Origin: a virus
Virus record (IMG/VR): IMGVR_UViG_3300044859_001857
Location: 1 to 49,175 of that record
DNA length: 49,175 bases
Strand: one strand, 5' to 3'
Part shown: in pieces, positions 26,068 to 48,133 of the stretch
Position numbering within the stretch: the stretch's first letter is position 1
How the letters are laid out: the number at the start of each line of letters is the position of its first letter
Made by a program: the position numbers and the translations under genes
The notes under the pieces: model-generated
Told to the model about the DNA's origin: nothing
Database searches by the model: none
The model's input: only the letters and a program-made list of their open reading frames with translations

Positions 26068-27162
26068 TTATAATTTTTTAAATTCAGGTTTTACAATTTT
26101 CCAAATAATAGGTGAAACATCTTTACCATCCAACATCCCAAACAATAATGACGGGTATTTGTATTGTTTTGCAACATTTGCAAAGTTCTTACGGTCACCA
26201 CCAACCTTATCCATCATGTTTTGGATATCTCTAAAGTGAATACCATAATCATTACTCAATGAGTTGAACATAAACTTAAGTTCATCTTCATACTCTTTGA
26301 TTTTACCATAGAACTCATCAGGTACATCTTTAAGTAATTCATCCATGTTTCCACCATTAGATAATACTTCCCAAACTGCGGTTGTTGATAAATTAGTCAT
26401 TATCTTATGTAAACGAACATACTCTTCAAATTTGATTTTCATTCTAAAGTTTCCTGGTTGGAACCTCAAAACAAAACCTTCTTTATTGGTTTCATTCTTT
26501 TCTTTCAAACTTTTGTAAAGTTCGTCTGAAAAATTGAAGTGTTGTTCAGTCTTTACAACATCTGACTCGTGGATTCCATTAGATTTAAATATCATAAGAG
26601 AGGTACTCCAATGTAGTTCGGTATCATCAGTGGAATTCCACTTGTAAGTCCCATTCAACACTGCAGATAGAAATGTCACTTTCTCAACTCCGTAATTAAC
26701 AACGATACGGTTTTCGGGATAAATGATTTCCAACAAGTAGGCGTATTCCTTCATCCAAGAATCCAAAAAGTATTTTTCTTTTACAATTTCAAGTCCCATT
26801 ACGGCTTGTTCTGAGGTAAAGGAACCACGAGTTGCCATAATCCACTCATCATCATAGTTGAACAAGATACCCAAAGACCCGTCTATTTTTTCTTGAACAT
26901 AGACATAATCACCTTTTTCAGGTATTACACCCTTACCAACCAACTCTTCATAATTGAAGAATTTTTTGAATGGTTGAACAACTATGTTTCCTACATTGTC
27001 GGTGATTAGTCCACGACAAGACATGGTAACCTCGTCCCATAGACCTTCATACTGAACTTTTTCTGAGTAGTTCCAAATAGTCAACGGTAAAGTCGGATGT
27101 ACTTGTTTGTACAACAGTCCTTCCTCGTGGTATTTGTTTAGTATGTTTAACGAAAGTTCCAT
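26068..27162 (-). CDS. rnlA: T4 RNA ligase 1-like RNA ligase (364 aa)
   Basis: Nucleotidyl-transferase motifs are visible: I, VQEKIDGSLG (lysine nucleophile K92); a downstream LLEIIYPENRIVVNY; IV, NKEGFVLRF; and V, RMKIKFEEYVRLH. The upstream MSCRGLITD and PFKKFFNYEE also match the T4 Rnl1 family. In T4 this ligase repairs host-cleaved tRNA anticodon loops, which fits a phage carrying 14 tRNAs. A TATCTTTG box lies 4 nt before ATG. Confidence 0.9.
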   Translation of the reverse strand: MELSLNILNKYHEEGLLYKQVHPTLPLTIWNYSEKVQYEGLWDEVTMSCRGLITDNVGNIVVQPFKKFFNYEELVGKGVIPEKGDYVYVQEKIDGSLGILFNYDDEWIMATRGSFTSEQAVMGLEIVKEKYFLDSWMKEYAYLLEIIYPENRIVVNYGVEKVTFLSAVLNGTYKWNSTDDTELHWSTSLMIFKSNGIHESDVVKTEQHFNFSDELYKSLKEKNETNKEGFVLRFQPGNFRMKIKFEEYVRLHKIMTNLSTTAVWEVLSNGGNMDELLKDVPDEFYGKIKEYEDELKFMFNSLSNDYGIHFRDIQNMMDKVGGDRKNFANVAKQYKYPSLLFGMLDGKDVSPIIWKIVKPEFKKL

Positions 27163-33797: not shown

Positions 33798-34970
33798 ATG
33801 CCAAATAATCTACTAACCGAAGTATCAAGAATAAGTGAGATAATTTACGGTACGACAAAATCATTACTTAATGAGGGTGTAATAGGTAATGTATTCAAAC
33901 AAATTGCAGAGACCGAAATACAAACAATTATTAGAGCAGAAATTAAAACCGCAATAAGAGCGGGTGCAAAAGAAGCTGACGCAGCCGTAACAAAATCTGC
34001 TAAAAATATTGAGTCAAGTGTTTTGAAAAAAACCGGTTTGAATTCTTTGACTGGACCACAAAAAAGTGCTCTTAGGGTTGAGGCTGCAAAAATTGCTAAA
34101 GAAGAGACTGAAGCAGCTGCTAAAATCACCACATCTAAAGGTGCAAAAGCTGTTACATCTACAGCGGAAAAAGAAGCTGCGGTGACTGCGGCACAAAACA
34201 TTAATAAGAATTTTAATAAAAATACTGTAGAAGTTGTTGTAAAACTAGAAGGTAAACTTCCAGGAATTAAAAATGCGTCAAGGGCCGGTTCTAAAACTGT
34301 TAAAACGGCTACGGGCCGTACAAAAAATTTGAAACGACCAGCACTTTCAGAAAAACAAGTGCTCGAGTTAGATACAGCAGTAAGAAATGGTGCTATAGAA
34401 CAAGTACAGACAGTGATAACAAAAAATTGGAATTGGGTAAAATATCTAAAATGGGGTGCACGAGTTGGTATCGGTGCCGGTGTTCTTTATTTATTATTTT
34501 ATTTTATGAGTGATGATGCAACACCCGTTCCTGATGATATTACACCAACACCAACACCACCAAGTCCTAATCCTGAATCTAGTAACTACAGAGATTGTAA
34601 TTCAGTTGAATTTTTAAGTCAGGGTTGTAAATCAGAAAAAATTAAAGATTTACAAACTTGTATTGGATTAACAGGTAGAGATGTTGATGGCCTTTGGGGT
34701 CCAAAAACACAAGCCAAAATGGTTGAATTAGGGTTGGCGACAGGTATTTTAGTTTCAGATATTGAAGGTATTTGTAACTCGTACAATCAAATTAAAACAG
34801 GTTCAAATGCTGATTTAGAATCATCAAGAGAAAAATTGCAAAATAGACAACAAAATAGAACTTTTTCAGGTGAAGAACCATATGCCGATTATGATGCGGC
34901 TTCAACATCATCACCATCAACTCAACCTTCAGGGACTAATTCAACTGAAGGACTAACAGCAGAATACTAA
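33798..34970 (+). CDS. putative packaged protein: Ala-rich helices, TM segment, peptidoglycan-binding-like domain (390 aa)
   Basis: The leader NNLLTEVSRISEIIYG ... KSLLNE|G has a good LNE|G cut at residues 23-27. Then ~180 residues of Ala/Lys-rich helix, a single transmembrane segment (about 221-237, ARVGIGAGVLYLLFYFM), a Pro/Thr linker (TPTPTPPSPNPE) and a Cys-containing domain with IKDLQTCIGLTG ... VDGLWGPKTQAKM (about 282-308), matching peptidoglycan-binding domains (DGxxGPxT). It resembles an injected envelope-spanning protein. Confidence 0.65.
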   Translation: MPNNLLTEVSRISEIIYGTTKSLLNEGVIGNVFKQIAETEIQTIIRAEIKTAIRAGAKEADAAVTKSAKNIESSVLKKTGLNSLTGPQKSALRVEAAKIAKEETEAAAKITTSKGAKAVTSTAEKEAAVTAAQNINKNFNKNTVEVVVKLEGKLPGIKNASRAGSKTVKTATGRTKNLKRPALSEKQVLELDTAVRNGAIEQVQTVITKNWNWVKYLKWGARVGIGAGVLYLLFYFMSDDATPVPDDITPTPTPPSPNPESSNYRDCNSVEFLSQGCKSEKIKDLQTCIGLTGRDVDGLWGPKTQAKMVELGLATGILVSDIEGICNSYNQIKTGSNADLESSREKLQNRQQNRTFSGEEPYADYDAASTSSPSTQPSGTNSTEGLTAEY

Positions 34971-37576: not shown

Positions 37577-38221
37577 CTATAAACCAAGTATGTCATCAAC
37601 TATTTGAGAAGAATTTAATTCGTTCCAAGAACGAGGATGTTCGTATGACCAAAAAGATTTCCAATTACCAAAATAGAGTACTCCTTGAAATCTATCGTCA
37701 ACAGTTTTCCAATCTGTAGATGATTTAGGTAATCTACCTATTTTATATGTTTTGTAAGGTTCAACACCATCTATGTTGAAAAAGTTAGGTGTTAATTTAT
37801 TTAGATTATCAAACTTACTTTTAATAATTGGCTTACACCCACTTATTTTTGAATATTGTAAAACTTTGGACATCCAAAATTTGGCTTCGTCCTCATCATT
37901 AGTTGTGATTTCAAAATTAACTAATTTACCCCTATCATTGTATCTGTGAGACCATATTAAAGATAAACCAATCTCACTATCATATTTGTAGATTAATATT
38001 TCAAAGTCCATGTAAAACTTAATATCAAGTTGAAACATCTTTTTTTGACCGTAGATGTTTTTACTTGTTATGTGATATCCTTGAACAAGTTTACTTATTT
38101 GAGACTTTTTTGGATACTCCCTAACCTCTACATAATATAAGTTATCAGGTCCATCAACATTAACCTTGATACCATCGTTAAAATCATAGTAAATTTTTAT
38201 ATCATCTATTTTGGTATACAT
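37577..38221 (-). CDS. half-length strand-loop-strand heptosyltransferase-like protein (214 aa)
   Basis: The N-terminal ~110 residues are beta-rich (IYYDFNDGIKVNVDGPDNLY; GYHITSKNIYGQKKMFQLDI; IWSHRYNDRGKLVNFEI), like the strand-loop-strand domain in front of autotransporter O-heptosyltransferase-type enzymes. Next come EAKFWMSKVLQYSKISGCKP, VEPYKTYKIGRLP and an end SSQIVDDILGL, where family members continue into the GT9-like catalytic half. Here the protein stops, so it looks like a shortened relative. It overlaps the carbamoyltransferase by 20 nt. From memory of the family only. Confidence 0.45.
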   Translation of the reverse strand: MYTKIDDIKIYYDFNDGIKVNVDGPDNLYYVEVREYPKKSQISKLVQGYHITSKNIYGQKKMFQLDIKFYMDFEILIYKYDSEIGLSLIWSHRYNDRGKLVNFEITTNDEDEAKFWMSKVLQYSKISGCKPIIKSKFDNLNKLTPNFFNIDGVEPYKTYKIGRLPKSSTDWKTVDDRFQGVLYFGNWKSFWSYEHPRSWNELNSSQIVDDILGL

Positions 38222-39797
38222 AATTTCCTATAACTAATTTATCAACAACTTTATTTTTCAAATGATTAAAGGCGTGTGAGGGGTTTTCAATTATTGGTTC
38301 TCCGTGAGTATTGAATGATGTATTTAATATCGCGGGAATTGACGATAATTCAAAATATTGTTTCATCAACTGATATATTTTTGGGTTATTCTCACTTGTA
38401 ATTACCTGTGGTCGTGCGGTTTTATCTGATTTCTGAACCACCGCAGGAATTTTGTCCATCCACTCAGTTTTTGTTGAGTAACATATTGTCATGAACTGAG
38501 CGGAATATTTTGATTTGTTGGTTGTAAACAAATCTTCAAAATACTCATCCAAGACCATCGGTGCGAACGGCATTGTGTCGTACCTGTTTAATCTACGATT
38601 AAGAACTTTATGGGTCTCTAATTGAGTTGGTCTAACCAATAAACTTCTATTACCTAACGCTCTTGGTCCAAACTCCATACCCCCATCAAACCATCCGATG
38701 ATTTTTCCTGAATGAATGTCTTTGGCAATTTCATCATAATCTAATCCCGTTCTAATGAAATCAAATTCTCTTGAGAACTCATAAATGGATTCTTCATCAT
38801 AACTTGGACCAAATGAAAAATTTGTCAATTTCAAAGGTTTTTTTAATTCACCCAATTGATTTGATTTCCAAAGAGCTGCACCTAAAGACAATCCTTCATC
38901 ACCCATTGGTGGGTATACAAACAATTCGTCTAACCAATCCAATTCATTTAACTTTTGGTTTAGTTTGACATTTGCAAACAATCCACCGGCAACTGCGATT
39001 TTGGTGTACTCAGGAAATTTTTTATGAATATCATTAAAGAATTCAATCATTAAATCTTCGGTTAGTTTTTGAAGATTATATGAAATAATTTCTCTTTGTT
39101 TTGGTGTTTTCATCAGACCATCATGATACATTGAATCTATGAGGAACTTGGTTTTTTCTGCGGTTGCTGAAGGTGAGAAATTAAAATTCTCATACTTTAT
39201 AACACTTGATAGTAGATTATGAATCTTTTCATCGTAGTGTCCTTCAGGTGCCATACCCATGAGCTTACCTTCATCCTTACACATTTTCCATTTACCTTGC
39301 ATGTATTGGTCATAACCCATAATACCTGATGTGACAAATGCCCAAATGTGTGCTAAACTTCCTGATGTTGATTGTTCAAGATTGAATATCTCTAACATCT
39401 TACCATCTTCACATAGAAAAATTTTCATTAGGTGTTCATGACCACCACCATCATAAGACAAAGTCAAAACTTTACCGTCCATTCCCGAAGTGAAATAGGC
39501 ACCGGCACAGTGTGCTGTGTGGTGAGAGATTATTTCATAAGGTTTACCGTTAGAAATAAAACTTGTGTAAGGTTCATGACTTGGGAAAACATCAACACGG
39601 TAATCAGAATCTTCAAATTTCAAACCGGTGACTTCTTCAATCTTTGCATGTGACTTTTCAGGTAAACAGTCGTGATTATCACCCGCTTTTAATCGGGTCA
39701 TTCTCTCCTCTTCAAGACAGTTTATTATTTCACCATCTTTAACTAAAGAGATAGATTGACTATGGTAACCTGTGTAGATTCCGTAGATTGTGCTCAT
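38202..39797 (-). CDS. carbamoyltransferase, NodU/CmcH family, copy 2 (531 aa)
   Basis: The N-terminal Kae1-like domain has YTGYHSQSISLVKDGEI, HHTAH (H92, H93, H96) for metal binding and TLSYDGGGHE (D116). The C-terminal domain shows GWFDGGMEFGPRALGNRSLL, NRYDTMPFAPMVL, KTARPQVI and LNTSFNTHGEPIIENP. These enzymes carbamoylate hydroxyl groups (sugars, antibiotics) from carbamoyl phosphate and ATP. The 1-nt gap to the other copy and overlap with the glycosyltransferase-like gene point to one pathway acting on a sugar, nucleoside or modified base. Confidence 0.85.
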   Translation of the reverse strand: MSTIYGIYTGYHSQSISLVKDGEIINCLEEERMTRLKAGDNHDCLPEKSHAKIEEVTGLKFEDSDYRVDVFPSHEPYTSFISNGKPYEIISHHTAHCAGAYFTSGMDGKVLTLSYDGGGHEHLMKIFLCEDGKMLEIFNLEQSTSGSLAHIWAFVTSGIMGYDQYMQGKWKMCKDEGKLMGMAPEGHYDEKIHNLLSSVIKYENFNFSPSATAEKTKFLIDSMYHDGLMKTPKQREIISYNLQKLTEDLMIEFFNDIHKKFPEYTKIAVAGGLFANVKLNQKLNELDWLDELFVYPPMGDEGLSLGAALWKSNQLGELKKPLKLTNFSFGPSYDEESIYEFSREFDFIRTGLDYDEIAKDIHSGKIIGWFDGGMEFGPRALGNRSLLVRPTQLETHKVLNRRLNRYDTMPFAPMVLDEYFEDLFTTNKSKYSAQFMTICYSTKTEWMDKIPAVVQKSDKTARPQVITSENNPKIYQLMKQYFELSSIPAILNTSFNTHGEPIIENPSHAFNHLKNKVVDKLVIGNYVYQNR

Positions 39798-39798
39798 A

Positions 39799-41478
39799 CT
39801 ATCTATTTTGAACTATAACGTAATTTCCTATAACAAGATAATTTAAATAACAGTTGTGAAGAGCTCTAATGGCATCATGTGGGGTTTCAACAATAGGTTC
39901 TCTCGGTCCATTGAAACTTGTATTCAACAATACGGGTACCCCTGTTTTGTTATAGAATGAAGAAATTATTTGATGAAATCTTGGATTATTGTCCTTTGTT
40001 ACTGATTGATATCTTGCGGATTTATCAATGTGAGTAACGGCAGGAATTCTGTCCCACCATTCAGGTTTAACTTGACTGGTAACCAACATGTGTGGTGAGT
40101 AGGTATCTAATTCAAAAATTTCACTTTGATGTTCAAACAATACTGCGGGTGCAAAAGGACGATACCACTCTCTGAATTTAATATCATGATTGATATGGTC
40201 TTTCATCCAATGAGGTATTGGAGATGAGATGATTGACCTATTACCAAGAGCTCTTGGACCAATTTCAGAACCACCTTGATACCAACCAATAACTCTATTG
40301 TTAACTAATTTATCTGAGATAAATTCAACTAAATCATCAAAATTTGGATAATGGGTTGCTTCACAGTTTGGGAAATCTTCTAATGCTTTTAGGAAATTTT
40401 CCTCAGAATATGTTTTACCTAAATAAGGGGAAATCATTTCCGTCTTTTCAATATCCGCAACTTGTTGATATGCATACCATGCACAACCTAATGGGATTCC
40501 ACTATCATCTGACGGTGGTAAAAAGAAACAACCATCGTAAAGACCTGATTTTAAGATTCGTTCATTTGAATTACAATTTAAAAAAGAACCACCTGCAGTA
40601 CAAACATTGTTTGATTTTGTTAATTTTTTTGCTAATTCAGATAACATAACAGAAATTCTCTCTTGTTCTCTCTGATAAATTCCCGCAACACAAGCCCTTG
40701 AGAAGAAGTCAGATTTCCAAGTCACATTTGGGTAGATTGTATTATTTGGGATGCAAATATCGGTTTGAGTTGAATCAGTCCAATGGGCAAATTTTGGTGC
40801 CTCATCCACAATATCTTGATTGGCGTATGATGCCAGTCCCATCAGTTTACCTGCGGGCCAAGTTTGGGTTCTTGGTTCATAAACAAGTTGAACTGAACCT
40901 TCAGAATACATGGTACCAACCGAAGTACATTCATTAGTGTTAATATCGGGAGGAGATATAATCCATTTTTTATAGACTTCAGTGTAACCTGACTTGGTTA
41001 AATGGTAAAGTGAAATACCTTCAGTCAAGTCTTGTTGTCCACTTAAAACTTTTTCGTATTCTTCAGGATACCAATTTTTTGTTTGATTATCTGAATTCAA
41101 AATACTTCCTGATGCATCCGCCACTATGATTGCAGATTCTTCCATTCCTGATGAAAAGAATGTTGAATAAGCGTGAGCCAAGTGGTGTGGAATATGAATC
41201 AACTTCTTTCTTGGTAGATTCCAAAACTTTTGAAGTTGTTCATAAGTTGTATCAGTAACTTCAGTTGTACTGTAGACAATCAAATCAACATCATCAAGGG
41301 TGTATTTGTATTCATTCAAACAATATAAAATTGAATCCAAGGGAATTACACCACCTTGATATGCACCATCATTTTTTACCCGAGATAATCTTTCTTGAGT
41401 AATTGCAATTAGAACCTCACCATCTTTGATAAGTGCAGCTCCTTTGTCGTGACCGACAGAAAAACCTAATACTATCAT
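39799..41478 (-). CDS. carbamoyltransferase, NodU/CmcH family, copy 1 (559 aa)
   Basis: Starts MIVLGFSVGHDKGAALIKDG. Conserved parts: IPHHLAHAYSTFFSSGM (H98, H99, H102), VADASGS (D121), GWYQGGSEIGPRALGNRSII, REWYRPFAPAVL, SARYQSVTKDNNPRFHQI and VLLNTSFNGPREPIVETP. Clearly a paralogue of the next gene but diverged, so the two probably act on different positions or substrates. The upstream 97-aa gene ends in an ATGA overlap with it. Confidence 0.85.
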   Translation of the reverse strand: MIVLGFSVGHDKGAALIKDGEVLIAITQERLSRVKNDGAYQGGVIPLDSILYCLNEYKYTLDDVDLIVYSTTEVTDTTYEQLQKFWNLPRKKLIHIPHHLAHAYSTFFSSGMEESAIIVADASGSILNSDNQTKNWYPEEYEKVLSGQQDLTEGISLYHLTKSGYTEVYKKWIISPPDINTNECTSVGTMYSEGSVQLVYEPRTQTWPAGKLMGLASYANQDIVDEAPKFAHWTDSTQTDICIPNNTIYPNVTWKSDFFSRACVAGIYQREQERISVMLSELAKKLTKSNNVCTAGGSFLNCNSNERILKSGLYDGCFFLPPSDDSGIPLGCAWYAYQQVADIEKTEMISPYLGKTYSEENFLKALEDFPNCEATHYPNFDDLVEFISDKLVNNRVIGWYQGGSEIGPRALGNRSIISSPIPHWMKDHINHDIKFREWYRPFAPAVLFEHQSEIFELDTYSPHMLVTSQVKPEWWDRIPAVTHIDKSARYQSVTKDNNPRFHQIISSFYNKTGVPVLLNTSFNGPREPIVETPHDAIRALHNCYLNYLVIGNYVIVQNR

Positions 41479-42573: not shown

Positions 42574-42771
42574 ATGACTAACGAAGAACTTTCAGAATAT
42601 TACGGTTTCAAGGCCCATGAGTATGGGTTTTTTGAACTTTGGAGAGATGTAACATGTGACTACATGAATAAGAATCCGAAATCGGATAGGTCAGAAGTAT
42701 ATGGTAGATTTTTCATTCAGTTACTTGATGAAAAGAACCAATCTCCCTTAAAAAGGGTGGTTAGTATTTGA
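42574..42771 (+). CDS. unknown small protein (65 aa)
   Basis: Begins MTNEELSEYYGFKAHEYGFF. Helical, mixed charge, no recognised family. Expressed from the promoter at 42487 with a ~55-nt leader. The tRNA-Pro promoter begins within its last codons. Confidence 0.55.
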   Translation: MTNEELSEYYGFKAHEYGFFELWRDVTCDYMNKNPKSDRSEVYGRFFIQLLDEKNQSPLKRVVSI

Positions 42772-42797
42772 TTTTCACACAATAATTTTTATCTTTG
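42767..42797 (+). promoter_or_regulatory. Bacteroidota promoter TTTG-19 nt-TATCTTTG for tRNA-Pro
   Basis: TTTG (42767-42770), 19-nt spacer, TATCTTTG (42790-42797), 9 nt before the tRNA's first base. The -33 element overlaps the stop codon of the preceding gene. Confidence 0.8.
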
Positions 42798-44391: not shown

Positions 44392-44422
44392 TTTGGACTC
44401 TCAAAAATTTAACATATATTTG
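44392..44422 (+). promoter_or_regulatory. Bacteroidota promoter TTTG-19 nt-TATATTTG for tRNA-Leu
   Basis: TTTG (44392-44395), 19-nt spacer, TATATTTG (44415-44422), 9 nt before the tRNA start, the same layout as for tRNA-Pro. Confidence 0.8.
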
Positions 44423-45397: not shown

Positions 45398-45428
45398 TTT
45401 GACAAGTTAAAAAACTTTTGTATATTTG
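45398..45428 (+). promoter_or_regulatory. Bacteroidota promoter TTTG-19 nt-TATATTTG
   Basis: TTTG (45398-45401), 19-nt spacer, TATATTTG (45421-45428). Transcription should start near 45434, just ahead of the leader frame at 45447. Confidence 0.8.
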
Positions 45429-45446
45429 TGGTATAATTATAAAGAC

Positions 45447-45545
45447 ATGAAAACTAATTTTGAACTCATTATGAATTTTGCGTTTGTAGCCATTTGTGAT
45501 AAGTGGTATCAGCGTAATATTGCTAGTTCGGGTATTCTCATGTAA
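45447..45545 (+). CDS. 32-aa leader peptide of an attenuator-like element
   Basis: Begins MKTNFELIMNFAFVAICDKW and ends SSGILM. The frame ends 24 nt before a terminator whose 5' arm can instead pair with a segment inside this frame (AGTTCGGGT, 45525-45533). This looks like a transcription-attenuation leader. It may also be a short functional peptide or part of a small RNA. Confidence 0.5.
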   Translation: MKTNFELIMNFAFVAICDKWYQRNIASSGILM

Positions 45546-45569
45546 ATTCAACAAGGATTAAAAATCGTG

Positions 45570-45598
45570 AACCCGAACTCAAAAAGTTCGGGTTTTTT
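45570..45598 (+). terminator. rho-independent terminator with alternative pairing partner
   Basis: AACCCGAACT/AGTTCGGGTT stem followed by TTTT. A second copy of the 3' arm (AGTTCGGGT) lies upstream at 45525-45533, allowing an exclusive alternative hairpin. Confidence 0.85.
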
Positions 45599-45641
45599 GT
45601 TTTAACTTTGTAGAGTTCTTTGACATATTGGTAGCCAAATC

Positions 45642-45716
45642 GGAAAGGTAGCGCAGTTGGTCAGCACGCGTCGGACTGAAAATCCGAAGATATGGGTTCG
45701 ATTCCCATCCTTTCCA
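45642..45716 (+). tRNA. tRNA-Phe(GAA)
   Basis: Acceptor GGAAAGG/CCTTTCC; anticodon stem TCGGA/TCCGA with loop CTGAAAA. A TAnnTTTG-type box (TAACTTTG, 45603-45610) lies ~30 nt upstream. No encoded CCA. Confidence 0.95.
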
Positions 45717-45724
45717 CAATACAT

Positions 45725-45798
45725 AGGCACTTAGCTCAGATGGTTAGAGCACCTGACTGATACTCAGGGGGTCGCAGGTTCAAGTCCTGCATTGCCTA
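45725..45798 (+). tRNA. tRNA-Ile(GAT)
   Basis: Acceptor AGGCACT/ATTGCCT with one C-T mismatch; anticodon stem CCTGA/TCAGG, loop CTGATAC. Eight nt after tRNA-Phe. No encoded CCA. Confidence 0.88.
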
Positions 45799-45804
45799 CT
45801 ATAT

Positions 45805-45875
45805 TACCCTCTCGTCTAACGGCAGGACAAGTGGTTTTGGTCCACTTAATTGGAGTTCGAATCTCTGGGGGGTAA
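45805..45875 (+). tRNA. tRNA-Gln(TTG)
   Basis: Acceptor TACCCTC/GGGGGTA; anticodon stem AGTGG/CCACT with loop TTTTGGT. T arm partly wobble-paired. No encoded CCA. Confidence 0.88.
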
Positions 45876-45879
45876 CAAT

Positions 45880-45954
45880 GGTTTCTTAGTTTAATTGGAT
45901 AAAACATCTCGCTACGGACGAGAAGATGTGGGAGTTCGAGTCTCTCAGGAATCA
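45880..45954 (+). tRNA. tRNA-Arg(ACG)
   Basis: Acceptor GGTTTCT/AGGAATC with two wobble pairs; anticodon stem TCTCG/CGAGA with loop CTACGGA. Needs A34-to-inosine editing by the host to read CGU/CGC/CGA. Confidence 0.9.
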
Positions 45955-45960
45955 CAATAC

Positions 45961-46031
45961 ATGGGTGTGGTGAAAGGGTATCATACCGGTCTCCAAAACC
46001 GTTGTTGGGAGTTCGAATCTCTCCACCCGTG
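45961..46031 (+). tRNA. tRNA-Trp(CCA)
   Basis: Acceptor ATGGGTG/CACCCGT, loop CTCCAAA, anticodon CCA, discriminator G. The first anticodon-stem pair is C-T mismatched. Confidence 0.88.
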
Positions 46032-46042
46032 CTAAAAAAATA

Positions 46043-46074
46043 TTTGTGTAATTAAAAAACGTGTTGTATCTTTG
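46043..46074 (+). promoter_or_regulatory. Bacteroidota promoter TTTG-20 nt-TATCTTTG
   Basis: TTTG (46043-46046), 20-nt spacer, TATCTTTG (46067-46074), then 4 nt to the ATG at 46079. This is the clearest full promoter placed for a leaderless mRNA. Confidence 0.8.
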
Positions 46075-46342: not shown

Positions 46343-46424
46343 GGGGGTATCGCATAGTGGCAATTGCGGCTGACTGTAAATCAGCTCCTTAATTGGTTCG
46401 GTGGTTCGAGTCCATCTACCCCCA
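46343..46424 (+). tRNA. tRNA-Tyr(GTA)
   Basis: Acceptor GGGGGTA/TACCCCC; anticodon stem GCTGA/TCAGC with loop CTGTAAA; long variable arm. Starts 6 nt after the preceding gene. Confidence 0.92.
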
Positions 46425-46441
46425 CTAAAAAATTTAAAATC

Positions 46442-46933
46442 ATGGGAACTAACTACTACAGGATTCCGAAGTCTAAGGAGATGACGGAACGATACCAAAA
46501 ATTACACGACCGTGTTGCTCATTTGGATTGGATTAATCCATCTTTGATTGAGCGTAATTTCAGGGACATTGAAGACCCTAAAGATTCTTGGTCTAAGTTA
46601 AATCCGTGGGATGAATTCACTTACGAAGCAAATATTCATTTAGGTAAACGAAGTAGTGGTTGGAAGTTTCTATGGAATTGGAATTCCAACAAGTTCTACA
46701 AGACCAAGGAAGAGTTGTTCAAGTTTATTCGTGATGGTAGGGTTGTGGATGAATATGGTGAGTTGATGGATACCGAAGAATTCATCAAAATGGCTTTAGA
46801 GTGGGGTCAAGAAGAAGGTTGGGACATTGAAAGTTACCACAAGGAAAATCCTGAACGTAACGTTTGGGGTGACCGTAAACACGAGGAGTACATTGAGGGT
46901 CTCCGTGTTTCAACTTCAACTGACTTTAGTTAA
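46442..46933 (+). CDS. conserved protein, MGTNYY family (163 aa)
   Basis: ATG at 46442 just after tRNA-Tyr. MGTNYYRIP ... ANIHLGKRSSGWKFLWNWNS ... DEYGELMDTEEFIKMALEW fits a small family found in phages and bacteria (MGTNYYxR...HIGKRSxGWxFxF...DEYGxxIxxEEF), probably all-helical with an N-terminal beta hairpin. Function unknown. The stop is 1 nt before tRNA-Met. Confidence 0.65.
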   Translation: MGTNYYRIPKSKEMTERYQKLHDRVAHLDWINPSLIERNFRDIEDPKDSWSKLNPWDEFTYEANIHLGKRSSGWKFLWNWNSNKFYKTKEELFKFIRDGRVVDEYGELMDTEEFIKMALEWGQEEGWDIESYHKENPERNVWGDRKHEEYIEGLRVSTSTDFS

Positions 46934-46934
46934 T

Positions 46935-47006
46935 GGCTTCGTAGCTCAGGGGTAGAGCATCTCTTTCATACGGAGAGGGTCGGTGGTTCAAATCCACCCG
47001 AAGCTA
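46935..47006 (+). tRNA. tRNA-Met(CAT), first CAT tRNA
   Basis: Acceptor GGCTTCG/CGAAGCT (one G-T pair); anticodon stem TCTCT/GGAGA with loop TTCATAC. Could be Met or, with lysidine, Ile; with two CAT tRNAs in the window one may be tRNA-Ile2. Confidence 0.85.
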
Positions 47007-47052
47007 CAATACAGGTCACTTGAGTAATGATTATCGGTCAAAAACACTTAAA

Positions 47053-47673
47053 ATGAGTCATAAATTAAATAAAATTGAACGATATATGAAAATAAACAGG
47101 AAAGACCTGTTATGGTTTCTCCAAAACATCCGTAGGAGAGCCGAGGGTCAAGAACTTACGGATGAGCAGTTGGCGGATAAACTTGCCGGTTATATTGAGA
47201 CAAACCCTGGTTGTGTTGATATGAATGGTGTTAGCAACCCTGGTAGGTTTAGTTACTCAACTGTTGGTTATGGTATCTTTTCACTTATGGGTGAAAAATA
47301 CCGAATGGGTAGGATTGAAATCTTTGATAGTGAAGATGAGTCAGGATACGCGGTTAGTGAGGGTATCTACACGATGCCATTTGTAGCGGCAAATCAATTT
47401 GAGGATTTCATTGAGTCTTTGGAAACTGATTTACCAATAAACATTGAAATCGGTTCTCATGGATGGTGTGAATCCGAGTGTGCAAAATCTCTTGGTTTTA
47501 AAGATTCGGAAGAAATGAGAGACCCTGAAAATGTAAAGGAATATCGGAGAAAGAAAAACGATGTTTATGCTCAAGAAAAGGGTTATAAAGATTGGGATGA
47601 TTTTATGGTTAATAGTAAGTTCGGATTAAAGAATCAGCTCAACAAAGAAGAAAATACGGCTCAAAAAGAGTGA
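47053..47673 (+). CDS. unknown protein (206 aa)
   Basis: ATG at 47053 chosen (MSHKLNKIERYMKINRKDLL); an ATG at 47086 or a TTG at 47020 are possible. Helical basic N-terminus (LLWFLQNIRRRAEGQELTDE), then a beta-like middle and an acidic C-terminus. Its stop lies in the loop of an 11-bp hairpin (47655-47686). No family recognised. Confidence 0.55.
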   Translation: MSHKLNKIERYMKINRKDLLWFLQNIRRRAEGQELTDEQLADKLAGYIETNPGCVDMNGVSNPGRFSYSTVGYGIFSLMGEKYRMGRIEIFDSEDESGYAVSEGIYTMPFVAANQFEDFIESLETDLPINIEIGSHGWCESECAKSLGFKDSEEMRDPENVKEYRRKKNDVYAQEKGYKDWDDFMVNSKFGLKNQLNKEENTAQKE

Positions 47674-47708
47674 TATTTGAGCCGTAAATTCCCTACCTTT
47701 GAGCCGTA
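47655..47708 (+). repeat. inverted plus direct repeat TACGGCTCAAA / TTTGAGCCGTA (x2)
   Basis: TACGGCTCAAA (47655-47665) pairs with TTTGAGCCGTA (47676-47686), and a second TTTGAGCCGTA follows (47698-47708). The second copy starts inside a TACCTTTG box directly before tRNA-Lys. The hairpin has no T-run, so it may be a processing or regulatory structure, not a terminator. Confidence 0.65.
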
Positions 47709-47710
47709 AT

Positions 47711-47785
47711 GACCTCGTAGCTCAATTGGTTTAGAGCACCTCACTTTTAATGAGGGGGTTTCGGGTTCAAGTCCCGACGGGGTCA
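47711..47785 (+). tRNA. tRNA-Lys(TTT)
   Basis: Acceptor GACCTCG/CGGGGTC; anticodon stem CCTCA/TGAGG, loop CTTTTAA. No encoded CCA. Confidence 0.95.
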
Positions 47786-47861
47786 CAAAAAAAATCGTAG
47801 TACCGCAAGGGAAGAAGGTGAAGTGTACAATCACCACAGGTTAAGCGATATCCTGTAACTT
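47786..47861 (+). other. inter-tRNA segment with two hairpins
   Basis: About 76 nt between tRNA-Lys and tRNA-Leu with no gene. Two stems can form: GGTGA/TCACC (9-nt loop) and ACAGG/CCTGT (10-nt loop). The length and arm layout recall a decayed tRNA, but no anticodon loop or TTCRA motif is present. Confidence 0.3.
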
Positions 47862-47942
47862 GCCGAAGTGGTGAAATGGTAGACACGCTGGTCTTAGGAA
47901 CCAGTACTTCACGGTGTGTGGGTTCGAGTCCCACCTTCGGTA
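47862..47942 (+). tRNA. tRNA-Leu(TAG)
   Basis: Acceptor GCCGAAG/CTTCGGT; anticodon stem CTGGT/ACCAG with loop CTTAGGA; variable arm present (class II). Confidence 0.9.
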
Positions 47943-47948
47943 CAAATT

Positions 47949-48023
47949 GCACCCTTAGCTCAGCGGGAGAGCACTTGGCTTACATCCAAGGGGTCGGAGG
48001 TTCAAATCCTTCAGGGTGCACCA
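47949..48023 (+). tRNA. tRNA-Val(TAC)
   Basis: Acceptor GCACCCT/AGGGTGC; anticodon stem CTTGG/CCAAG with loop CTTACAT; 3' CCA encoded, as for tRNA-Pro. Confidence 0.95.
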
Positions 48024-48028
48024 ATATT

Positions 48029-48102
48029 GGACCTTTAGCTCAGTTGGTCAGAGCAGTTGACTCATAATCAATTGGTCGGGGGTTCAAGTCCCTCAAGGTC
48101 CA
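48029..48102 (+). tRNA. tRNA with CAT anticodon (Met or Ile2)
   Basis: Acceptor GGACCTT/AAGGTCC; anticodon stem GTTGA/TCAAT with loop CTCATAA. Second CAT tRNA of the window. The last tRNA gene before the strand switch. Confidence 0.85.
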
Positions 48103-48133
48103 CAAAACCCCTTAAACTTTTTTGTGAGTTTTA

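Follow-up and report, generated by a model that had tools for sequence, protein, structure and literature searches.

What does a promoter with a short reading frame and a terminator do directly in front of a phage tRNA array? The reason why phages carry tRNA genes at all has been debated for decades (PMC10264068), and host tRNA loss after infection is documented in work cited in the same paper. The element lies in an IMG/VR virus record of 49,175 bases, the whole of which was analysed and is called the window here. Based on a comparison of this sequence with related phage loci, it is very probably a ribosome-mediated transcription attenuator that makes phage tRNAs on demand.

A sequence-only reading of the window had proposed a promoter, a 32-codon frame and three segments able to form two mutually exclusive hairpins, and each of these parts was found where it had been placed, exact to the base (Table 1). 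The segment 9-mer occurs five times on the two strands of the window, against 0.20 expected, and three of the five are segments 1-3. The predicted terminator, a stem of 11 pairs closed by a 5-nt loop and followed by a T-run, has its stem 48 nt ahead of tRNA-Phe, the first gene of the array.

Table 1 Parts of the tRNA leader in the window, and leaders that precede tRNA arrays in other phage sequences
Feature	Position	Strand	Description
Promoter, Bacteroidota-type	45398..45428	+	TTTG-N19-TATATTTG; predicted transcript start ~45434
Leader ORF	45447..45545	+	MKTNFELIMNFAFVAICDKWYQRNIASSGILM; 32 codons
Segment 1	45525..45533	+	AGTTCGGGT; predicted antiterminator 5′ arm, within the final leader codons
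Segment 2	45571..45579	+	ACCCGAACT; common to predicted antiterminator (with segment 1) and terminator (with segment 3)
Segment 3 and T-run	45585..45600	+	AGTTCGGGT copy at 45585-45593; predicted 3′ arm of the intrinsic terminator
boxA-like motif	45615..45631	+	GTTCTTTGACATATTGG; between attenuator and tRNA-Phe
tRNA-Phe, Ile, Gln, Arg, Trp	45642..46032	+	Array directly after the attenuator
tRNAs Tyr, Met, Lys, Leu, Val, Met and small ORFs	46343..48103	+	Beyond the first five tRNAs
L007 leader			MKLVNKQIVKHVIQFCQNWYIRLFASSGVLS; before Phe Ile Gln Lys Val Tyr Cys His Arg Trp Leu Asn
L036 leader			MKTTMTYKLGVDKTGMVADSLTQGPGMSNMS; before Ser Asp Val Thr Lys Met Ala Gly
L119 leader			MKNLLDILMVALVAVLWAADEDRLYSVG; before Asp2 Glu2 Val2 Leu4 Ala2 Trp2
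L154 leader			MKNNINTLVLLLNNLLLQSNRTGRVIQMC; before seven Leu tRNAs (taa, caa, aag, taa, gag, cag, tag)
Cellulophaga phage phi4:1 (cultured), leader 1			MKIQRLHLQELEQPIISGGTGV; before Pro Glu Gln His Leu Leu Arg
Cellulophaga phage phi4:1, leader 2			MQLTKTGITVIDKTKGARAYLGDTVIG; GTG start, within annotated gp075 (AGO49488.1); before Ala Lys Ile Gly Met Asp Thr Val Arg Met Tyr
LR756501 (735-kb metagenomic phage) leader			MLQTSKHSKHFSSSSKWFTTFGVETDLLCVS; before Trp His His Phe Lys Ser
LR756501 leader			MKNMVRKYNDYCINDKLKMLIG; before Ile Cys Ile Asp Asn3 Ile Tyr Asp
LR745206 (634-kb phage) leader			MTTNSTHKNFSKSHKWFSNQSFGTESVLSLN; before His Phe His Phe Trp Lys4 Arg Ser

The strongest evidence against a chance arrangement is its recurrence in front of tRNA arrays. 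When IMG/VR was scanned for the three exact segments with free spacers, 17 loci were recovered; each of them stands immediately in front of a tRNA array and has a short ORF that extends into segment 1. L002 is almost identical to the window, and L001 has diverged with every part kept. A second IMG/VR scan, anchored on the T-run and the boxA-like motif only, returned 38 loci, many with very different stems, and a third gave at least 119 contigs. Among the matches listed, a script identified 153 terminator plus boxA-like modules; an ATG ORF ends at segment 1 in 150 of these listed modules, and at least three tRNAs lie behind the attenuator in 118. These module searches were anchored on one boxA-like motif, and the prevalence figures cover such loci only.

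In GTDB genomes the strict pattern gave no match and the relaxed pattern 74, none with both a leader and a tRNA array, and the device looks phage-borne as far as the patterns used can tell. No match was returned by blastn of the other leaders against phage isolates, and tblastn of the leader peptides gave none or only chance-level ones; the phi4:1 example was found by reading its tRNA array. The arrays of crAss-like cr116_1 and Sphingomonas phage PAU, inspected by eye, showed no such leader. E. coli-type boxA was present at 122 sites in viral contigs, one of them before tRNAs, and no leader was seen at that site. One contig (L300, position 5848, plus strand) carries a 27-tRNA array preceded by a terminator and an E. 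coli-type boxA, and a leader peptide is not apparent there. Judging from the promoter type, the host of phi4:1 and the resemblance of the boxA-like motif to an rRNA leader, the hosts are probably mostly Bacteroidota.

A correspondence that was absent from the sequence-only reading gives the leader ORF its meaning: its codons match the tRNAs encoded downstream. Before segment 1, the window leader contains codons for all ten downstream isotypes (F I Q R W Y M K L V), which for the window alone, with its own protein composition as the null, is moderate evidence (P = 0.008 for the ten isotypes and 0.055 for the first five tRNAs). Across 40 leaders sharing <50% identity, with operon ends defined by a 1-kb gap rule, 96.2% of operon isotypes are present before segment 1. 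Re-pairing leaders and operons lowers this value to 66.8% ± 3.0%, with a maximum of 78.1% in 20,000 permutations. The match is confined to the translated sense frame, which gave z = 9.8 and 12.0 (the latter composition-controlled), while the five other frames ranged from -1.7 to 1.7; DNA upstream of the leaders did not match the tRNA set. The leaders are partly homologous and not fully independent; non-redundant sets were taken at both <50% (n = 40) and <35% identity (n = 27), the latter giving z = 7.9 and, with composition controlled, 9.3. The match is not a selection effect, because the searches and the ORF rule ignored peptide and tRNA content.

The correspondence extends to single residues and codons. 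Tyr is present in the leader at all 16 loci with an operon tRNA-Tyr, versus 5 of 24 without one. In arrays whose Arg tRNAs read one codon box, 16 leader Arg codons belong to that box and one to the other; the same test gave 18 own versus 7 other codons for Leu, and was not informative for Ser (16 versus 12). In phi4:1 the Arg codons track the anticodons, with CGT before tRNA-Arg(acg) and AGA before tRNA-Arg(tct), and the leader preceding the seven-Leu array reads CTG CTT CTC CTC CTA TTG TTA, which comprises all six Leu codons. The local array decodes no more than 61% of the residues in the leaders, and the window leader also holds Thr, Asn, Glu, Ala, Cys and Asp. In L001 (minus strand, ~1570-1640) a Cys-tRNA-like sequence that ARAGORN does not call follows the leader terminator directly, and the leader there has a Cys codon.

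The proposal that segment 2 pairs alternatively with segment 1 or segment 3 is supported by the 40 non-redundant loci, in which segment 1:2 duplexes exceed those formed with shuffled upstream DNA (mean z 2.8, combined z = 17.8), with 39 different segment 1 sequences. Dozens of stem sequences occur across ~150 IMG/VR sites and change together. The sequence-only reading had named a lack of compensatory changes across related phages among the grounds for abandoning it. Such changes are present among homologues in all three segments (GGAGATGG/CCATCTCC, GAAGATGG/CCATCTTC, GAAGAGGG/CCCTCTTC and GGAGAGGG/CCCTCTCC), as read from ungapped stems. Formal pair counting was dropped because the MAFFT subfamily alignment, confronted with spacers of differing length, shifted segment 2 by one base in three rows. 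One locus (L132) has no convincing segment 1. Compensatory stems, 1:2 pairing and the frame-specific codon match together give comparative support to the suggestion of the sequence-only reading that the leader frame attenuates the tRNAs that follow.

The geometry of the leader is suited to such a switch. Matched codons lie at least 13 nt before segment 1 in 90% of cases, and the stop codon lies a median of 9 nt behind it, placed in 36 of 40 loci so that a finished ribosome would reach segment 1, and beyond easy reach in the other four. We folded the leaders with the ribosome footprint removed and, for the window, with the polymerase placed just before segment 3. The predicted probability of 1:2 pairing, P(1:2), in the window is 0.98 without a ribosome and 0.96-0.98 with one at codons 1-22, falls to 0.89 at codon 23 (Arg) and 0.55 at codon 24, and is 0 from codon 25 onward, so that Trp20-Tyr21-Gln22-Arg23 just precede the switch point. 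Over the 40 loci P(1:2) averages 0.87 with the ribosome at matched codons, 0.71 without a ribosome and 0.00 with it at the stop codon, and both phi4:1 leaders give the expected antiterminator in truncated folds. Once segment 3 is complete, the equilibrium often prefers the terminator even with segment 1 free (window P(1:2) 0.02-0.62), and the switch must therefore act kinetically, with timing being important. Kinetic action is accepted for other attenuators.

The sequences show the architecture, its recurrence, the covariation, the geometry and a codon match to the array that is specific to the translated frame; transcription, leader translation, stalling and the polarity of the response are what we infer from them. 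RNA polymerase would start near 45434, followed by a ribosome translating the 32-codon leader, which would serve as a test strip with at least one codon per array isotype ahead of segment 1. If all sampled tRNAs were charged and plentiful, the ribosome would quickly arrive at the stop codon and mask segment 1, segments 2 and 3 would form the terminator, and the tRNAs would remain off. If any one of the sampled tRNAs were scarce, for example when host tRNAs are cut or lost in infection, the ribosome would wait upstream of segment 1. The free segment 1 would then pair with segment 2, no terminator would form, and the polymerase would pass the boxA-like site into the array. An untranslated leader would be read through by default.

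Other explanations of the same parts differ in how they account for the codon match and the competing hairpin. Promoter, ORF and terminator form a complete unit and RNA 45434-45602 folds well (z = -3.6), as would be expected of an ordinary small gene or stable small RNA whose segment 1 repeat and tRNA neighbours are incidental. This is extremely unlikely, since no Pfam or Rfam family fits the leader, the peptide sequence is unconserved between families while its composition tracks the array, and the complementarity of segment 1 to segment 2 is kept across the 40 loci. The stable RNA of ~165 nt that the sequence-only reading had offered as an alternative is likewise not favoured, nothing conserved having been seen outside the attenuator parts, though a terminated leader would be just such an RNA. 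The codon match could instead be a by-product, either of genome-wide codon use by phages with given tRNAs or of co-inheritance without a functional link, and some homologous leaders do travel with similar arrays. Against this stand its absence from the other frames and from upstream DNA, its persistence at <35% peptide identity, and comparisons within single genomes. Genomes with two arrays carry two leaders, each matching its own array: own isotypes are covered 9/9 and 6/6 in L029 (the other array's 3/6 and 4/9), 6/7 and 13/13 in L022 (4/13 and 3/7), and 6/6 and 9/10 in phi4:1 (3/10 and 3/6). At 16 loci there are 2.06 leader residues per local isotype versus 0.66 per isotype encoded elsewhere in the same locus. 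These within-genome and frame controls already largely refute the by-product explanation, which is almost certainly wrong.

The attenuator parts might also be read out differently: leader translation would govern RNA decay or termination by Rho ahead of the array, antitermination would fall mainly to the boxA-like site, and the 1:2 hairpin would be secondary. All collected modules contain the boxA-like motif, which the scans had, however, selected for, and boxA counters Rho at rRNA (PMC4807359). Nearly all loci nevertheless have both a competitor hairpin that covaries and a strong intrinsic terminator complete with T-run, which a Rho scheme could do without, and the boxA-like site, being located behind the terminator, cannot act before it has itself been transcribed; we regard this readout as very unlikely. 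A question of purpose rather than mechanism is raised by the possibility, which we consider less likely than not, that the attenuator works as described and provides plain feedback on phage tRNA supply, shutting the array once there is enough tRNA, instead of responding to host tRNA loss. Product feedback is inherent in the same circuit, and it is the physiological trigger itself that we infer. No observation decides against it: the presence of an RNA ligase in the window and the reports of host tRNA depletion fit a demand signal, without proving it, and are compatible with feedback too.

Ribosome-mediated attenuation is classical. The attenuators of amino-acid operons (enterobacterial trp, his, thr, leu and ilv) have a leader rich in regulatory codons, exclusive hairpins that share a strand and a U-run, and respond to scarce charged tRNA. 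The phage element has the same codon-rich short leader between promoter and terminator, the same exclusive antiterminator and terminator sharing one strand, the same U-run and a stop codon placed for masking by a finished ribosome and not by a stalled one (36/40 loci and footprint folds), and a response to tRNA scarcity is predicted for it; the codon enrichment is clear in the family and moderate in the window alone. It differs in belonging to phages and in what it controls, as its downstream genes are tRNAs rather than genes for amino-acid synthesis or tRNA charging, and in sampling up to 13 or more isotypes where amino-acid operon leaders sample one to three. Its three segments also lack the protector hairpin found in the trp leader, so the antiterminator is predicted to form by default when no ribosome is present (P 0.98 while segment 3 has yet to be transcribed). 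Rfam leader models scored below their cut-offs on the element (Thr_leader 17.7 of 55 bits, Trp_leader 12.6 of 41).

T-box riboswitches also sense tRNA charging and control a terminator, binding one uncharged tRNA directly and having no leader ORF. The phage element would share with them the control of a terminator by tRNA charging, whereas a leader ORF is found in the phage element only, and a T-box model search of the element gave no match. The boxA-like GTTCTTTGACATATTGG resembles GTTCCTAGACATATTG upstream of 16S in one Flavobacterium genome, although boxA/Nus elements belong to rRNA operons and the motif here stands before tRNA arrays, behind an attenuator; the exact phage motif was absent from four Bacteroidota genomes with one mismatch allowed. 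Phage tRNA arrays have been proposed as an answer to host tRNA depletion (PMC10264068, PMC11555353), which concerns the same genes and the same need, and attenuation is not mentioned in PMC10264068. The literature searched, which included few subscription papers and does not prove absence, did not describe tRNA genes, whether of phages or of other origin, as being controlled by a leader peptide, and we have not found a leader that samples a whole tRNA set to control phage tRNA genes described.

We consider it likely that the element represents a general sensor of tRNA supply in phages, probably mostly of Bacteroidota hosts, whose leaders have evolved to hold exactly the codons of their own array, such that loss of any member, for example to a tRNA-cutting defence, would induce all. 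A leader that tests each tRNA of its array implies that phage tRNAs are wanted when supply fails, and its sequence would then reveal which tRNAs a phage expects to lose. Ribosome-mediated attenuation keyed to single amino acids would thereby be joined by a multi-input form that senses an entire tRNA set. With such leaders, tRNA-array operons and what triggers them could be predicted from sequence, and a natural reporter for multi-tRNA depletion would be at hand; in cultured Cellulophaga phage phi4:1 the purpose of phage tRNAs becomes directly testable.

In phi4:1 (L231, KC821632.1), the annotated CDS Phi4:1_gp075 at 1388-1507 is the second leader, with the annotated start inside the promoter; the true start is probably the GTG at 1424. 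The minus strand of LR756501 (L235) has a five-Leu-tRNA array at 34157-34700, with a terminator and the boxA-like TGTTCTTTAACAT upstream.

Promoters are a further recurrent part, TAnnTTTG being present in the 75 nt that precede the leader ATG at 18 of the 40 non-redundant loci versus 2.2 in shuffles. In the window the TTTG-N19-TATATTTG pattern has seven matches against 2.2 expected. A further promoter-like site at 46043-46074 separates the first five tRNAs from the later six, which may be transcribed from the leader promoter. Promoter-like sites at 42767-42797 and 44392-44422 directly precede single tRNAs (Pro; Leu-Ile) that have no leader, which indicates that in the window the attenuator covers the larger array only. 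Between the terminator and the boxA-like motif lies a lone -7-like box, TAACTTTG (45603-45610), with no -33 partner at the proper spacing. A second promoter between attenuator and tRNAs was dropped as a general feature, as such a box or promoter was found in only 3 of 40 loci, with a complete promoter in L043. Given these promoter-like boxes behind the terminator, some arrays may be transcribed independently of the leader.

Two other regions of the window, both on the minus strand, are of note. The gene at 26068-27162 encodes a T4 Rnl1-type RNA ligase (PF09511, E 1e-16). Ligases of this class are known for mending cut tRNAs, and its presence fits a phage facing tRNA-cutting defences. At 38202-41478 lie two adjacent carbamoyltransferase-like genes, an unusual cargo, the first matching Carbam_trans_N and C and the second judged by eye.
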